From positions 1-31,212 of IMG/VR virus record IMGVR_UViG_3300045009_000107: a stretch of DNA of 31,212 nucleotides; one strand, 5' to 3'. Made by a program: the position numbers and the translations under genes. This document shows, one piece after another, positions 7,812-26,295 of the stretch. The notes beneath the pieces were generated by a model. The model was not told the DNA's origin. It ran no database searches and saw only the letters and a list, made by a program, of their open reading frames with translations. Position 1 is the stretch's first letter. Each line of letters opens with the position of its first letter. The stretch is from a virus.

Positions 7812-10800
7812 TTATGATGTATTTACTGTAGCCAAATAATATGTCGTTCCGCCTACGTTTAATTGAATATACTGTGAATTATTCAAAGTAACGCCAGCAC
7901 TTGCCACTCTTTCGCCAAATTTCCAGGCTGCAGCGGTTCCCCCACTAGGCGCACCTGTGGTTATACTTCCACTTGTCTTTACTGCGGTTATTGAGGTGTT
8001 TCCTAATCTTATAGTATTACTTCCTTCCCCTCTTCCACCACTTCCTATCACTATCTCATTGGTGTTTCCACTTGCACTTGAACGAGTGTCATAGCCTAAA
8101 TAGATAGAGTTGTTAGAAGTTTGATTAGCTCCTCCTGCATTGGTGTAAAGACCTGCTTCCACTCCCATTGCAGAGTTCAAATACCCTGTGGTGTTGTAGT
8201 AAAGAGCATACACTCCCATTGCAGAGTTGAAATACCCTGTGGTGTTGTAGTAAAGAGCATACACTCCCATTGCAGAGTTTTGATACCCTGTGGTGTTGGA
8301 GTAAAGATCAAACGCTCCTATTGCAGAGTTGAAATACCCTGTGGTGTTGGAGTAAAGAGCAAACGCTCCTATTGCAGAGTTTTGATACCCTGTGGTGTTG
8401 GAGTAAAGAGCAGACACTCCTATTGCACTATTATATGAACCTAAATAAGAAGCACCACCCTCTGTTCCTGATGATAAACCACCACCACCAATAAAGATGT
8501 TTGCACCATCACTTCCTGAACCATAATATGTACTAAATACTCTTGCTTGTCCGTTACTGTTGAGGGAAAAGTTGCCACCCACAACTTGCAACCTTGCACC
8601 ATTATCTGCTGTTGTAGTTCCCACAAGTACATTCCCCCCACTTGTGATTGTCATTGCTCTAGTAAATGAACCACCTGACTTTATATATGTTTCATAAAAA
8701 CCATTCGTTGTCAGGTTAAACCCAAAACCTTTATCATCAGCTTGATTTGCAAATTGAATCTGCAATCCACTTCCATAAGTATCAGATAAATCTTTTGATA
8801 CTACAAACATTTTAGCTTTCTGCCCTGTACCCCCTGCATCTATTTTAAATGAAGTTCCTGCTATGATACCTTCTCCTGTGTTTCCTGATGATGGGGAATT
8901 AGCAGTTAAGTTATTTGTTGCTTGTACTGCCCCCCCACTTGTTACATTAATCCTTGCTGAACCACCAGTCCATATTGTAAAAGCACCAGTTAATCCAGAT
9001 GAACCTCTCATGTTACCACAATAAACTGGATTTGCGGTATCAGTAAATTCTATTGCTGAATCATAAGGACCATTATCAGTGTATATTCTCATGTAATTAG
9101 ATGCAGATGCGCCTCTATAAACTTGAAGTTTGTAACTAGCTCCAGCGTCTGTTGTTGTATTCCCGATTAATACATTCCCCCCACTTGTTATACGGAGTCG
9201 CTCGGTATTGTTAGTACCAAAAGCTAAGTTTCTTGCACCTCTTGCATTGATACCGAACATATTAGTACCACCGTCACCAAATATTTGCTGTGCAGTACCA
9301 ATATCAGCAATAATAGTACCGCTTGTTTGCCATGTCATATAACCGCCATTAGCTGCGGTAGAATTAATATCACCAACTAATCCATTAGATGTTGATAGGT
9401 ATAATTCTTTTGCCGTTACAGATGAACTAAACGTAGCACTTGTAGCTGATATACTACCTAGAAAAGTACCACTATCTGTAAATGAAGCCATATTTCCATA
9501 AACAGTCCCAGATGCATAAATATCTCCATTTACATAAAGCCTATAAGCAGATATAGGATCAGCACCTATACCAACTTTTTGTCCATCACTTATAGTTATT
9601 GCTCTTGTACTATTTGTAGCAAAACTTAAAGTATTTGCAGCACTTAAATACATTCCATTTGTAGGAACAGTTGAGCCTGTTGGGATAAATGCAGTTGCAG
9701 TTGAAGTGCTTGACATTAAGCTGCTTGTACCATTTAATGCTCCAGTAAGAGTACCGCCTGATAAGGGTAAATAAGCTGTAAGTCCAATCTCAGCCGCAGT
9801 CCATGCTACGTTTGCAGAACCATCAAAAGATTTTGCAGTTCCGTTTATTGTAAAGTTTCTTGCAGTAGTTAAAGTTGCTGCACTTCCAGTTGTGTTTTGA
9901 TTAAGTGTAGGTATATCAGCAGCTACTATTGCCCGAAATGTTGGACTTCCCGCTGCACCATTAGGAGCTGCAAAAAAAAGGTTTGCAGTTTGTGAACCAA
10001 ATGCCGCTTGTTTATTATTAAAAGTTGTCCAATCCGCACTGCTCAAAGCGCCTCTATTTGTCGCACTTGCAGTTGGCAAATTAAATGTATGGGTTGTATT
10101 AGCAGAGCTTATACCAAAGTCAGTACCAGTAGTTCCTACCGCAAAAGTCTGTGTTGATGCTGTTAAACTGTTTAAAGATGTTAAAGCTGCACTTAATTTA
10201 TTATTAAATGTTGTCCAATCTGTTGATGTCAAATATCCGTTAACCAATCCTGTAGCAGCAGGGATAGAAACTGTATTAGTTGATCTACTTAAAGGAGCTG
10301 AGAATGTCAAAGGCTGCTCTGGAGTATATCCTAAAACAGTTGCTATAGATTTATGTTCCCAAAGCTGAGATGTGCTATTGTAAAAAATCCCATCATTATT
10401 GTTAGGATTGAGTGCATCAACATTATGCAATTCATCTAATTCTACCCCGTTTTGCACCTTAACCTCAATGACACCATTAACTGCATTCTGTGTTGTTACA
10501 ATACCTACATAAACTAAATGAATGGGAGCATAAGGTTTAGTGCTCGTTACTGCTCCTGCAGTAGTTCCTGACAAATATAACTGAGTTCCTGCATCATATG
10601 CTGATGTATCAACCCCTGTAATTTGTCCGACAATAACAACAACTCCATTAGAGTTATTTGCTATATCATCCTGAACTAAACCAAGTGTCTGAGCTGATGT
10701 AGCATCTCCTGTTGCTATAGCTTTTGCAATTGTTGGATGACCTGCAGTAGCTCCATTGATAAAAACTACAGTTCCTTTATTTATGGTTGCTCCTGAGTTA

Positions 10801-11537
10801 TTTCTAACCTGTAGGATTAATTTATTAGATGAAGTAAAAGAAGGGAAAACAGTATTTACCCAATATGATCCATTGTATCTTAAATAGTCATTTGTCGCTG
10901 CAGATGTAATTGCTACATCCCCAAGTTGATCAATATTATAATCCCCCTCCTGAGCTAATATCGTTCCTGTTCTACCAAATACACTTGAAACTGCATTGCT
11001 GTTCAGAGATTTTTGCCATATAGTTCCGTTATAAATAACCCAATCTCCAACCGCAAAACTAATCGCTCCGCTACCTAAATTCTGTGAACCTGCAACATTA
11101 ACCAAATAAACATCTCCATTATCACCTGTGCCATCCGCCAGAGTTGGAGTATTAGTTGATGCATTCCATGTACCCTTATATTCCATGACTGATGAAGGCA
11201 ACTGAGCAGCAGGAATCTTCCCACCTGAGTCCAATGTTGCAATACCATTAGCCAATCCAAAACCATAAGTACCTGCAAAATTTCCATTAGTCAACTGAGG
11301 GACACCTGTTCCCAAATTGGTAAGAGTTAAACCTCCTGTAGTTATTGGATCGGTTGTAGTATCTCCGTTATCTGTAACCTGCTGTAAAGTAACTGATGCC
11401 TGAGCACCAATCAAATTAGCAACCTGCAGCCATGTCATCTTTTTTAGCTGCCCTGTGATGGGATCGCCTATTGTAGTTAAATCACTTGTCTGAGGATTTA
11501 CGTTAGTGGCTAATTGATTTATTTTTTTAGACTCCAT
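7812..11537 (-). CDS. Long tail fibre / receptor-binding protein with tandem repeats
   Basis: This gene encodes 1241 residues. The N-terminus (MESKKINQLATNVNPQTSDL) is the usual virion-attachment start of Bacteroidota phage fibres. The middle contains collar-like and beta-helix-type segments, for example DWTTFNNK twice (about residues 440-510), and recurring fibre motifs with GGNVLIGNTTTDAG and GGNVLVGTTTADNG. Residues about 1041-1126 are five 17-residue repeats of the form NSAxGxxxLYxNTTGYx, similar in style to the left-handed roll repeats of YadA-type heads. The C-terminus (GEGSNTIRLGNTSITAVKTS to the end) shows no clear Peptidase S74 chaperone. It is probably a trimer that recognises the host surface. 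It is the longest gene in the window. Confidence 0.88.
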   Translation of the reverse strand: MESKKINQLATNVNPQTSDLTTIGDPITGQLKKMTWLQVANLIGAQASVTLQQVTDNGDTTTDPITTGGLTLTNLGTGVPQLTNGNFAGTYGFGLANGIATLDSGGKIPAAQLPSSVMEYKGTWNASTNTPTLADGTGDNGDVYLVNVAGSQNLGSGAISFAVGDWVIYNGTIWQKSLNSNAVSSVFGRTGTILAQEGDYNIDQLGDVAITSAATNDYLRYNGSYWVNTVFPSFTSSNKLILQVRNNSGATINKGTVVFINGATAGHPTIAKAIATGDATSAQTLGLVQDDIANNSNGVVVIVGQITGVDTSAYDAGTQLYLSGTTAGAVTSTKPYAPIHLVYVGIVTTQNAVNGVIEVKVQNGVELDELHNVDALNPNNNDGIFYNSTSQLWEHKSIATVLGYTPEQPLTFSAPLSRSTNTVSIPAATGLVNGYLTSTDWTTFNNKLSAALTSLNSLTASTQTFAVGTTGTDFGISSANTTHTFNLPTASATNRGALSSADWTTFNNKQAAFGSQTANLFFAAPNGAAGSPTFRAIVAADIPTLNQNTTGSAATLTTARNFTINGTAKSFDGSANVAWTAAEIGLTAYLPLSGGTLTGALNGTSSLMSSTSTATAFIPTGSTVPTNGMYLSAANTLSFATNSTRAITISDGQKVGIGADPISAYRLYVNGDIYASGTVYGNMASFTDSGTFLGSISATSATFSSSVTAKELYLSTSNGLVGDINSTAANGGYMTWQTSGTIIADIGTAQQIFGDGGTNMFGINARGARNLAFGTNNTERLRITSGGNVLIGNTTTDAGASYKLQVYRGASASNYMRIYTDNGPYDSAIEFTDTANPVYCGNMRGSSGLTGAFTIWTGGSARINVTSGGAVQATNNLTANSPSSGNTGEGIIAGTSFKIDAGGTGQKAKMFVVSKDLSDTYGSGLQIQFANQADDKGFGFNLTTNGFYETYIKSGGSFTRAMTITSGGNVLVGTTTADNGARLQVVGGNFSLNSNGQARVFSTYYGSGSDGANIFIGGGGLSSGTEGGASYLGSYNSAIGVSALYSNTTGYQNSAIGAFALYSNTTGYFNSAIGAFDLYSNTTGYQNSAMGVYALYYNTTGYFNSAMGVYALYYNTTGYLNSAMGVEAGLYTNAGGANQTSNNSIYLGYDTRSSASGNTNEIVIGSGGRGEGSNTIRLGNTSITAVKTSGSITTGAPSGGTAAAWKFGERVASAGVTLNNSQYIQLNVGGTTYYLATVNTS
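8161..8415 (-). repeat. Five 51-base tandem repeats inside the tail fibre gene
   Basis: Units start at 8161, 8212, 8263, 8314 and 8365, each 51 bases (17 codons), with high identity. The codon after GGGTAT varies CAA, TTC, CAA, TTC, TTG in protein order (Q, F, Q, F, L), and the SAIGA / SAMGV variants split the array into two groups. The alternation suggests that a 102-base pair of units was duplicated. The array stays in frame, so copy-number change would lengthen or shorten the fibre by 17 residues per step. Confidence 0.92.
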
Positions 11538-24615: not shown

Positions 24616-24811
24616 CAGATGCTTTAACTTTGATCTCAATCTGTAATGTCTTTCCCATTGCATCAAAGATTTTCGTAATGACTGATAGTCTGGGATTAGA
24701 GCCATTTTCAATTCTGTTAATAGAAACAAAACTTATGCCTGATTTCTCAGCAAGTTGTTTCTGGGTTAAGTTTAGTTTTTGTCTTTCTTTTTTCAATAAT
24801 TGTCCGATCAT
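24590..24811 (-). CDS. XRE-family helix-turn-helix regulator
   Basis: This gene encodes 73 residues. The XRE helix-turn-helix is complete: LLKKERQKLNLTQKQLAEKS (helices 1-2), GISFVSINRIENGSN (recognition helix), and PRLSVITKIFDAMGKTLQIE (helices 4-5). It has no extra effector domain, so a small DNA-binding regulator, either a phage repressor or an antitoxin-like protein. The coupled 61-residue protein upstream (4-base overlap) gives a two-gene unit reminiscent of HipB-like or toxin-antitoxin pairs, but the partner shows no toxin motif. Possible target: the half-site cluster at 6131-6171. Confidence 0.85.
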   Translation of the reverse strand: MIGQLLKKERQKLNLTQKQLAEKSGISFVSINRIENGSNPRLSVITKIFDAMGKTLQIEIKVKASDVLDVAAY

Positions 24812-24993
24812 ATTTCTGCTTGTTTTATGACTTCCGTTGATTTAATGCATTTGTTTTCATTTATGAAGTCATAGTATTCAAGTGCTTTTTCTTCTTTGCT
24901 CGTTCCTGATCCTGTAACATACTTTCCATCAAGCATAATGAAATACCATACTTCGCCAATAAAATTTACTTCTTTGATTAATTCTACTTTCAT
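24808..24993 (-). CDS. Small protein coupled to the XRE regulator
   Basis: This gene encodes 61 residues: MKVELIKEVNFIGEVWYFIM, then LDGKYVTGSGTSKEEKALEY, then a C-terminal YDFINENKCIKSTEVIKQAE. The WYxIxLDGxYVxGSGTxxEEKALExYxxI pattern recurs in small Bacteroidota phage and mobile-element proteins (from memory); the function is unknown. It starts 15 bases after a -7-like TATATTTG and its stop overlaps the XRE start by 4 bases. Confidence 0.72.
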   Translation of the reverse strand: MKVELIKEVNFIGEVWYFIMLDGKYVTGSGTSKEEKALEYYDFINENKCIKSTEVIKQAEI

Positions 24994-25025: not shown

Positions 25026-25322
25026 TTAATACAATTCTTCCTGCCTAAATCTTTTTTCTTCTTTATGTCTTGCATAATAGCTATCACCCCGTAATTCAGG
25101 ATTTTCTTCTTGTATCTTCTGTCTTGCCCTTCTAATAGATTCAGGGTTTGATAATTTACCTTCTGAAAATAACTTTAAAAACTCAATTGCCATTGTTTTG
25201 TCTTTACCAAGCAATAAAAGTTCTCTCCACCAAATGTTTGCGATCAATGCCTGATCGTTGTCCCTTAAATGCTTTTTGTGTGTGAGCAAGTAAATGATGA
25301 TTTCTTTGTTATGTAGTTTCAT
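25026..25322 (-). CDS. Phage protein of unknown function (DUF-like, NDQxLIANIWW motif)
   Basis: From ATG 25322 the product is 98 residues. The block HLRDNDQALIANIWWREL, followed by FLKLFSEGKLSNPESIRRAR and QKIQEENPELRGDSYY, is a pattern I know from many Bacteroidota phage proteins of unknown function; the part SNxESIRRxRxKxQEExPxLRG is the most conserved. It is helical and basic and may bind nucleic acid. An upstream ATG at 25355 would add 11 residues inside the methyltransferase gene; the chosen start fits the family better and overlaps that gene by 14 bases. Confidence 0.75.
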   Translation of the reverse strand: MKLHNKEIIIYLLTHKKHLRDNDQALIANIWWRELLLLGKDKTMAIEFLKLFSEGKLSNPESIRRARQKIQEENPELRGDSYYARHKEEKRFRQEELY

Positions 25323-26295
25323 ATTTTTGAATCGTTTTAAAAATTTCATAAGCAATTTGCGGTACTATGGCATTTCCTCCTGCTTTAATTGATTCGTTTC
25401 TCCATTTAGGAAAGGTAATAAAGTCCAATCTGTTGGAAAGCCCATCATCTCCAATACAAAGTGGGGAGACAGATGGAAACGAGTCCCAAACATTTCGTTC
25501 ATTTGAATACCCAAATCGTCTCCCTTCCAATTCTCCGTTTTCCAATGCATATTCTTGTCCGATGTTCTTGGAGTATGTAGAAGTTTTCCTCTTAATACCA
25601 TTCTTGTTAGACTGTTCTGGCTGTCCACTTTTCCAGCTTTTTCCGATTCTGTTGCACAAGGTGTTGGCAGCATCCCATTTCTTGCTATGTCGTTCAGACT
25701 TGGACCGAATCTCATCCCATCCTTTGGTCTGATGTTCACAAAACTTCCGTTCATAAATTTCAATTCCTTGCCGTTGTTTACATTCTCTGCCATTCCATCC
25801 ATTGTTTTTGGAGTAGGCAACAAACCAAACCCTGTCTCTTCGGTGCGGTGCATTGACGGATACAGCTGGCAGTACATACGGCCACACTTCGTACCCCTCA
25901 GCTTCCAAGTCAACCTGCACCTCGTGGAATACCAACCCTCTATTCCAATTAATAAGGCCGTAAACGTTTTCGCCCACAACCCAACTTGGCTGAATTTCCC
26001 TAATTGCTCTAAGCATTTCTGGCCAGAGGTGTCTCTCATCTTCTTTGCCAAGTCGCTTTCCTGCGCTTGAGTATGGTTGGCAAGGGAATCCTCCTGTGAG
26101 AATATCAATTTTGTTTGCATATTTAGTGAAGTCTGTTTTTGTTATGTCAGTAAAAGATTCTGTTTCAGGCCAGTAATATTTTAAGACCTTTTGGCAAAAC
26201 TCATTCCATTCGCAATGAAACACATTTTCCCACCCCATCCATTCAGCTGCAAGATCAAATCCACCTATGCCACTAAATAATGATCCATGATTCAT
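25309..26295 (-). CDS. C5-cytosine DNA methyltransferase
   Basis: This gene encodes 328 residues with the motifs of m5C methyltransferases in order: motif I LFSGIGGFDLA (6-16), motif IV GGFPCQPYSSAG with catalytic Cys72, motif VI ENVYGL (near 109), motif VIII HRRDRVWF (near 152), and motif X GNAIVPQIAYEIF (near 309). It would methylate cosines' equivalent cytosines in phage DNA at the C5 position, probably to evade host restriction. No restriction enzyme gene is adjacent. The segment between motifs VIII and X is basic, asparagine-rich and low in complexity, with a recurrent YSKNxG, and is overlapped by a long ORF in another frame. The region looks richer in GC than its neighbours, hinting at recent acquisition. 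Its start overlaps a 28-residue ORF by ATGA. Confidence 0.93.
   Translation of the reverse strand: MNHGSLFSGIGGFDLAAEWMGWENVFHCEWNEFCQKVLKYYWPETESFTDITKTDFTKYANKIDILTGGFPCQPYSSAGKRLGKEDERHLWPEMLRAIREIQPSWVVGENVYGLINWNRGLVFHEVQVDLEAEGYEVWPYVLPAVSVNAPHRRDRVWFVAYSKNNGWNGRECKQRQGIEIYERKFCEHQTKGWDEIRSKSERHSKKWDAANTLCNRIGKSWKSGQPEQSNKNGIKRKTSTYSKNIGQEYALENGELEGRRFGYSNERNVWDSFPSVSPLCIGDDGLSNRLDFITFPKWRNESIKAGGNAIVPQIAYEIFKTIQKYETT
25365..26120 (-). CDS. Long alternative-frame ORF inside the methyltransferase gene, conserved-looking
   Basis: This 251-codon ORF lies wholly within the methyltransferase gene, shifted by one base. The product has protein-like features of its own: TSGQKCLEQLGKFSQVGLWA (31-50), LIGIEGWYSTRCRLTWKLRG (57-76), repeated L-P/H-T-P boxes at 101-104, 151-154 and 181-184, and a C-terminal LSPHFVLEMMGFPTDW (217-232). 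I recall phage proteins with the same order (LPTP boxes, then LNPxxVExxMGFPxxWT), some of which seem to be free-standing genes. The conserved methyltransferase DNA could produce this pattern as a by-product, so expression is unproven. The internal ATG at 26120 has no clear ribosome-binding site. Function unknown. Confidence 0.4.
   Translation of the reverse strand: MQTKLIFSQEDSLANHTQAQESDLAKKMRDTSGQKCLEQLGKFSQVGLWAKTFTALLIGIEGWYSTRCRLTWKLRGTKCGRMYCQLYPSMHRTEETGFGLLPTPKTMDGMAENVNNGKELKFMNGSFVNIRPKDGMRFGPSLNDIARNGMLPTPCATESEKAGKVDSQNSLTRMVLRGKLLHTPRTSDKNMHWKTENWKGDDLGIQMNEMFGTRFHLSPHFVLEMMGFPTDWTLLPFLNGETNQLKQEEMP

Follow-up and report, generated by a model that had tools for sequence, protein, structure and literature searches.

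A phage C5-cytosine methyltransferase gene with a conserved nested frame that most likely encodes its recognition subunit

In canonical C5-cytosine DNA methyltransferases (MTases) the recognition region and motif IX are situated between motifs VIII and X of one chain. M.EaeI, like M.EcoHK31I, is a natural two-polypeptide enzyme of this class. For M.EcoHK31I, Lee, Kam and Shaw are said to have described in 1995 a small ORF nested in another frame of the large one, both proteins reportedly being necessary for methylation in vitro. The large polypeptide of M.EcoHK31I (YGGCCR) comprises motifs I–VIII and X, with the recognition domain also assigned to it, and motif IX is located in the small polypeptide (PMC3404938). 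Another way of dividing the enzyme is represented by M.AquI (CYCGRG), in which the second polypeptide carries the recognition region together with motifs IX and X and the genes overlap little (PMC3404938).

The phage gene analysed here is contained in IMG/VR virus record IMGVR_UViG_3300045009_000107; the whole stretch of 31,212 nucleotides, positions 1 to 31,212 of that record, is referred to as the window. To judge from sequence comparison, it is highly probable that two proteins written in nested frames of this gene jointly make up one C5-cytosine DNA methyltransferase, the second protein being translated in its own right and pairing with the first.

Layout of the two frames

The MTase frame, termed alpha, codes for a protein of 328 aa in which motifs I, IV, VI, VIII and X and the catalytic domain fold of the PF00145 family are all present (Table 1). 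The protein departs from the usual single-chain form, since the recognition domain and motif IX are not located in the same chain; this function is apparently relocated to the product of a second ORF, termed beta. Beta comprises 251 codons in the +1 frame, begins at alpha codon 59 and ends shortly after motif IX, leaving motif X in alpha. Both ORFs are situated exactly where an earlier reading made from the sequence alone (the sequence-only reading) had placed them, and the boxes listed there for beta were found at the same residues: LPTP at 101 and 151, LHTP at 181 and MGFPTDWT at 226. The alpha frame carries boxes of its own, YSKNNG at residue 161, YSKNIG at 241 and YSNERN at 263, and spells DDGLSNRLD opposite beta motif IX. 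No clear Shine-Dalgarno sequence is seen ahead of the beta ATG in the window.

Table 1. Position of the two nested frames and their motifs in the window.
Feature	Position	Strand	Evidence
Alpha, motifs I–VIII and X, without motif IX	25309..26295	-	PF00145, E 2.6e-49 (Pfam search); hhalign; M.HhaI superposition
Beta, proposed recognition/motif IX subunit	25365..26120	-	phrog_1008; long +1 ORF in 63/63 homologues; purifying selection
Alpha motif I (LFSGIGG)	26260..26280	-	Sequence; invariant or nearly so in homologue alignment
Alpha motif IV (PCQPYS), catalytic Cys72	26068..26085	-	Sequence; P71, C72, Q73 invariant in homologue alignment
Alpha motif VI (ENV)	25963..25971	-	Sequence; invariant in homologue alignment
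Alpha motif VIII (NAPHRRDR)	25831..25854	-	Sequence; A149, P150, H151, R153, R155 invariant in homologue alignment
Alpha "shadow" of the recognition region, residues 161-282	25450..25815	-	dN/dS 0.78-1.28; AlphaFold pLDDT < 50 at 167-282
Beta recognition (TRD) region, LPTP/LPTP/LHTP boxes, residues 95-216	25473..25838	-	dN/dS 0.14-0.18; in-frame single-chain MTase match
Beta motif IX (LSPHFVLEMMGFPTDW), residues 217-232	25425..25472	-	Profile alignment to canonical motif IX; both frames constrained
Alpha motif X (AGGNAIVPQIAYEIF)	25339..25383	-	Sequence; predicted helix, pLDDT ~90-95; G307, N308, A309, P312 invariant

An ORF of 109 aa (25026-25355, minus strand) is located 3' of the MTase gene and overlaps its 3' end by 47 bases; it has no match in Pfam or PHROG. 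A Pfam search of the immediate neighbours of the alpha/beta gene brought up no restriction endonuclease. A small helix-turn-helix protein (PF01381; 24590-24811, minus strand) lies directly 3' of a 61-aa protein (24808-24993, minus strand), with their ends overlapping, and these two could be a toxin-antitoxin-like or regulatory pair. Farther away, 7812-11537 (minus strand) codes for a tail-fibre-like protein of 1241 aa with short tandem repeats (ALYSNTTGYQNSAIGA...) near its C terminus.

Openness and selection in the two frames

Two sets of homologues were gathered from viral contigs, with beta as the query for one and alpha for the other. The alpha-seeded set was collected with the MTase frame alone, and therefore carries no selection for an open beta frame. 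A long +1 ORF is nevertheless present in all 63 distinct homologues of this set, where the +1 frame is open over a median of 269 of 333 codons, versus 39 for the +2 frame. Under a null model in which synonymous codons were shuffled within each gene (300 shuffles per gene), the observed +1 length was reached by no shuffle in 55 of the 63 genes and by three or fewer in 61; the +2 frame of the same homologues is as open as its shuffle null. For the window gene by itself, 18 of 20,000 synonymous shuffles gave a +1 ORF of the observed length. Canonical C5-MTases from the same bacterial genomes contain no full-length +1 ORF, two of nine having one of 146-157 codons. The open +1 frame is not a matter of chance. 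The three antisense frames, on the other strand of the 63 homologues, are not open beyond synonymous shuffles; antisense ORFs 25367-25732 and 25555-26070 (both plus strand) thus look incidental and were rejected as extra overlapping genes.

Selection was measured by an overlap-aware dN/dS, in which substitutions are scored by their effect in both frames (the OLGenie principle, implemented in our own script with Jukes-Cantor correction). The method is simple, SS sites are few and the sequence pairs are partly dependent; with this scope, the +1 frame had values of about 0.7-1.0 where the frames do not overlap in a first pass over 54 pairs, and close pairs gave, over the recognition region, 0.11 for the +1 frame versus 0.59 for the MTase frame. 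A position-resolved pass over 41 pairs with bootstrap intervals placed alpha at 0.10-0.14 over motifs IV–VIII, at 0.78 (0.62-1.06) and 1.28 (0.96-1.77) in the recognition region, at 0.24 at motif IX and at 0.10 beyond the beta stop. For beta, the recognition region gave 0.14 and 0.18, the stretch from alpha codon 105 up to motif VIII gave 0.25-0.37 and motif IX gave 0.21; the +1 "dN/dS" beyond the limits of the overlap came to 1.2 and 0.83, as expected of a non-coding frame. The alignment filter retained columns by alpha-frame identity, which biases against seeing alpha relaxed.

Between motifs VIII and IX, the alpha frame evolves almost neutrally (0.8-1.3) and purifying selection on the +1 frame is strong, so that the MTase frame is carried along as a passenger over roughly 100 codons. 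In beta, the first ~45 residues, located over motif IV, show little constraint at the amino-acid level (1.25, interval 0.77-2.18), which leaves the exact beta start uncertain; alpha-synonymous changes over this part are rarer (0.40) than outside the overlap (0.85).

The sequence-only reading had seen the MTase frame as giving way in the overlap, and the near-neutral alpha values over the recognition region bear this out. It had also named stops in the second frame of homologues and a second-frame dN/dS near 1 as signs of a by-product; the +1 frame is open in the homologues, and its dN/dS is 0.14-0.21 over the recognition region. An origin of the open frame in codon usage and composition, with its boxes as shadows of MTase motifs, could account for the pairing of beta boxes with MTase boxes (VADTDS with LPTPTA, DDGLSxRLD with MMGFPxxWT) and draws on the higher chance openness of GC-rich members, exemplified by RcPacific, where 132 of 2000 shuffles reached the observed length. 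Such an origin is scarcely credible, being refuted by the synonymous shuffles, which fall short of the observed +1 length, by the opposite dN/dS in the two frames, with the MTase frame the shadow-like one over the recognition region, and by the existence of in-frame beta homologues outside the nested setting, described below.

Identity of the beta protein

Beta has no match in Pfam or NCBIfam, and its HMM retrieved nothing from PDB sequences at E <= 10. It matches the PHROG family phrog_1008 ("DNA methyltransferase") with E 2.5e-20, as do all 92 aligned homologues. The alpha profile aligns with canonical MTases over motifs I–VIII only (hhalign, E 4e-37), and the sole alignment of the beta profile to canonical C5-MTases falls on motif IX (LSPHFVLEMMGFPTDWT versus RKMTPREWARLQGFPEDFK, E 0.011), a match that is weak when taken by itself (E 0.006-0.011). 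Motif IX is found in none of the 63 alpha proteins. Its strict pattern occurs in 60 of the 63 beta proteins, with MGFATDW in one more; the two beta proteins without a scored motif IX were cut short, apparently by the motif X pattern applied.

The strongest link for the identity of beta comes, on profile comparison, from phages and plasmids of actinobacteria. In Gordonia phage Jabberwocky, gp4 (444 aa) unites motifs I–VIII, LPTP boxes, motif IX (RLNAAFAEWMMMLPAGHV) and motif X in a single chain and a single frame, and a plasmid-encoded MTase of Streptomyces violaceusniger likewise carries a similar motif IX and motif X in frame. Tandem-split versions exist as well: gp78/gp77 of Mycobacterium phage Eagle and gp69/gp70 of Jarcob are each a pair of separate ORFs. 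Searched with the beta profile, Jabberwocky gp4 scores 2e-12 in hmmsearch and 97% with E 1.5e-11 in hhalign, and the S. violaceusniger MTase scores 2e-5, both single chains being hit between motifs VIII and X; the second members of the two tandem pairs, Eagle gp77 and Jarcob gp70, are found too. LPTP repeats could inflate the hmmsearch values for these four targets (7e-18 to 2e-5), the alignment nevertheless extending through motif IX. Decoys in the same search, consisting of alpha proteins and canonical MTases, have E > 0.7. These matches indicate in-frame homology between beta and the part of single-chain MTases that comprises the recognition region together with motif IX.

Among the roles suggested for beta by the sequence-only reading, that of a target-recognition accessory fits these matches best. 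The free-standing relatives mentioned there exist in part: homologues outside the nested setting are found, in tandem or fused form, in actinobacteriophages, but most phage relatives that look free-standing are nested ORFs too, at loci where a single frame was annotated.

Since motif IX is absent from alpha, and beta has an in-frame match to the recognition region as well as to motif IX, the gene most likely specifies a C5-MTase of the M.EcoHK31I type, with two subunits written in nested frames and beta very probably the DNA-recognition part of the same enzyme. Alpha would bring the AdoMet/catalytic domain (motifs I–VIII) and the C-terminal motif X helix, the segment between motifs VIII and X being a near-neutral, probably unstructured linker. 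Beta, translated from its own internal start in the +1 frame, would fold onto alpha as the partner in a heterodimer and contribute the target-recognition region and motif IX in trans. The complex would methylate phage DNA, probably as a protection against host restriction, as general knowledge of phage MTases suggests. The constraint on beta in Bacteroides loci with TGA stops in alpha also speaks for this two-subunit model.

The AlphaFold model of alpha, built with 92 homologues, is mostly confident over residues 1-165 and 310-328, and both ends superpose on M.HhaI (VIA-align, Z 21, 187 residues aligned). The pLDDT falls below 50 over residues 167-282, and this middle part of alpha is predicted to be disordered. 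Beta modelled alone gave a poor result (AlphaFold, pLDDT 61), with no PDB match and meaningless Foldseek hits; the same would be expected of a subunit folding upon its partner, and the model is therefore no evidence either way.

The lack of a Pfam match and of a confident fold, together with an intact beta in some Bacteroides loci where alpha is interrupted, would also suit a genuine protein of unrelated function, such as anti-restriction or regulation, overprinted on the MTase. This is very improbable, because beta is homologous in frame to the recognition segment of single-chain MTases and because alpha, in complementary fashion, lacks motif IX. Recoding offers another route to a complete enzyme: ribosomes translating alpha could slip into the +1 frame once past motif VIII, perhaps returning to the alpha frame for motif X, and so produce one chain and no separate beta. 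The resulting order, alpha (I–VIII), beta (TRD, IX), alpha (X), would restore that of Jabberwocky gp4. Two opposite shifts would be required, however, the +1 frame is already open and constrained well ahead of motif VIII, and the Eagle and Jarcob pairs are separate tandem ORFs, which makes recoding improbable.

Spread of the nested pair and comparison with known enzymes

The same arrangement occurs, as far as sequence searches tell, in hundreds of phages and prophages. The nested pair was seen in Lacticaseibacillus, Paenibacillus, Bacteroides, marine, N15 and K1G loci, in Salmonella, Cronobacter, Edwardsiella, Rhodobacter, Xanthomonas, Pseudomonas, Microcystis and cyanophage loci, and also in phage Lc-Nu, P. 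larvae phages and Bacteroidota prophages. In phage N15 the gene with this layout is gene 58. A scan of genome contigs with the beta sequence alone retrieved nothing; an alignment-based scan retrieved 80 loci from bacterial genomes, nearly all of Bacteroidota, with the beta frame intact in about 70. In tblastn searches, one GC-rich beta as the query matched 267 phage records and the second Jarcob gene matched 571.

GenBank mostly records one frame. Both ORFs are annotated in Paenibacillus phage Leyra (LEYRA_61/62) and Escherichia phage K1G (ORF31/ORF30, "Mte8-like"), and these pairs are labelled methyltransferase or Mte8-like with no subunit role given. The beta family as a whole is catalogued under "DNA methyltransferase" or "Mte8-like" (phrog_1008; AUS03898.1, which is LEYRA_62; ADA82276.1, which is K1G ORF30) and, despite the methyltransferase label, lacks catalytic motifs. 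The overlap of these ORFs is not discussed in the relevant passages of the two related papers, and no reports of overlapping-frame phage MTases were found in the open-licence literature. This kind of arrangement is already known; what may be new is how widely it occurs and how neutral the MTase frame is over the recognition region.

In several Bacteroides loci TGA stops occur in the alpha shadow region, and most of these loci have no motif X, with beta open and constrained. Loci L239, L240, L241, L245, L246 and L247, from Bacteroides and Parabacteroides genomes, have such a TGA-interrupted alpha and a beta under purifying selection, and are possibly a further-split or decaying state. A match on a Citrobacter amalonaticus plasmid (L256, 2917-3816) is a nested-gene remnant in which alpha is broken and beta continues into unrelated sequence; it looks like a decayed copy and was rejected as a restriction-modification relative. 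A Klebsiella aerogenes plasmid match has phage-type gene surroundings and no annotated restriction enzyme adjoining it.

Taken as one joint proposition, it is rather probable that dual-frame coding is the standard design of a very large group of phage C5-MTases, in phages of Bacteroidota, Bacillota, Pseudomonadota, Cyanobacteria and partly Actinomycetota, that their recognition half lies in the +1 frame with the MTase frame above it a near-neutral passenger, and that the nested, tandem-split and single-chain forms represent different states within one evolving system. On this view the annotations of hundreds of phage MTases would cover half an enzyme. Should the enzyme need both frames, expressing only the annotated phage C5-MTase of the nested type ought to give an inactive or non-specific product, and the recognition code would have to be read from the +1 frame; this would also explain the widespread, unexplained phage family phrog_1008/"Mte8-like". 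The locus is an unusually well-replicated case of a long nested overlap in which one frame is almost neutral over about 100 codons, yet retained. With fused, tandem and nested states to compare, it provides a natural experiment on how overlapping genes arise and resolve.

Among catalogued families, phrog_1008 takes in beta, its name being silent on the second-frame position in an MTase gene. Jabberwocky gp4 has recognition boxes and a motif IX of the same kind as beta, and the S. violaceusniger MTase shares the kind of motif IX; unlike alpha and beta, both are one chain in one frame, with motifs I–X in order. As in M.AquI and Eagle gp78/gp77, the C5-MTase is most likely divided here into catalytic and recognition parts. 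The second polypeptide of the Eagle type of tandem MTases, however, consists of the recognition region with motifs IX and X, with little gene overlap, and here, unlike in these tandem enzymes and in M.AquI, the alpha frame retains motif X and encloses the beta ORF.

The natural precedent for this layout is M.EcoHK31I, likened here by description and not by sequence. It differs from the present locus in that recognition is assigned there to the large subunit and is placed here, by selection and homology, in the small one, and in that the present gene belongs to a phage and has no endonuclease close by that Pfam detects. As in M.EcoHK31I, the large polypeptide alpha has motifs I–VIII and X and lacks motif IX, motif IX is found in the small polypeptide beta (E 0.011 to canonical and 1.5e-11 to single-chain MTases), and the small ORF is nested in another frame of the large one, as is reportedly the case in M.EcoHK31I.
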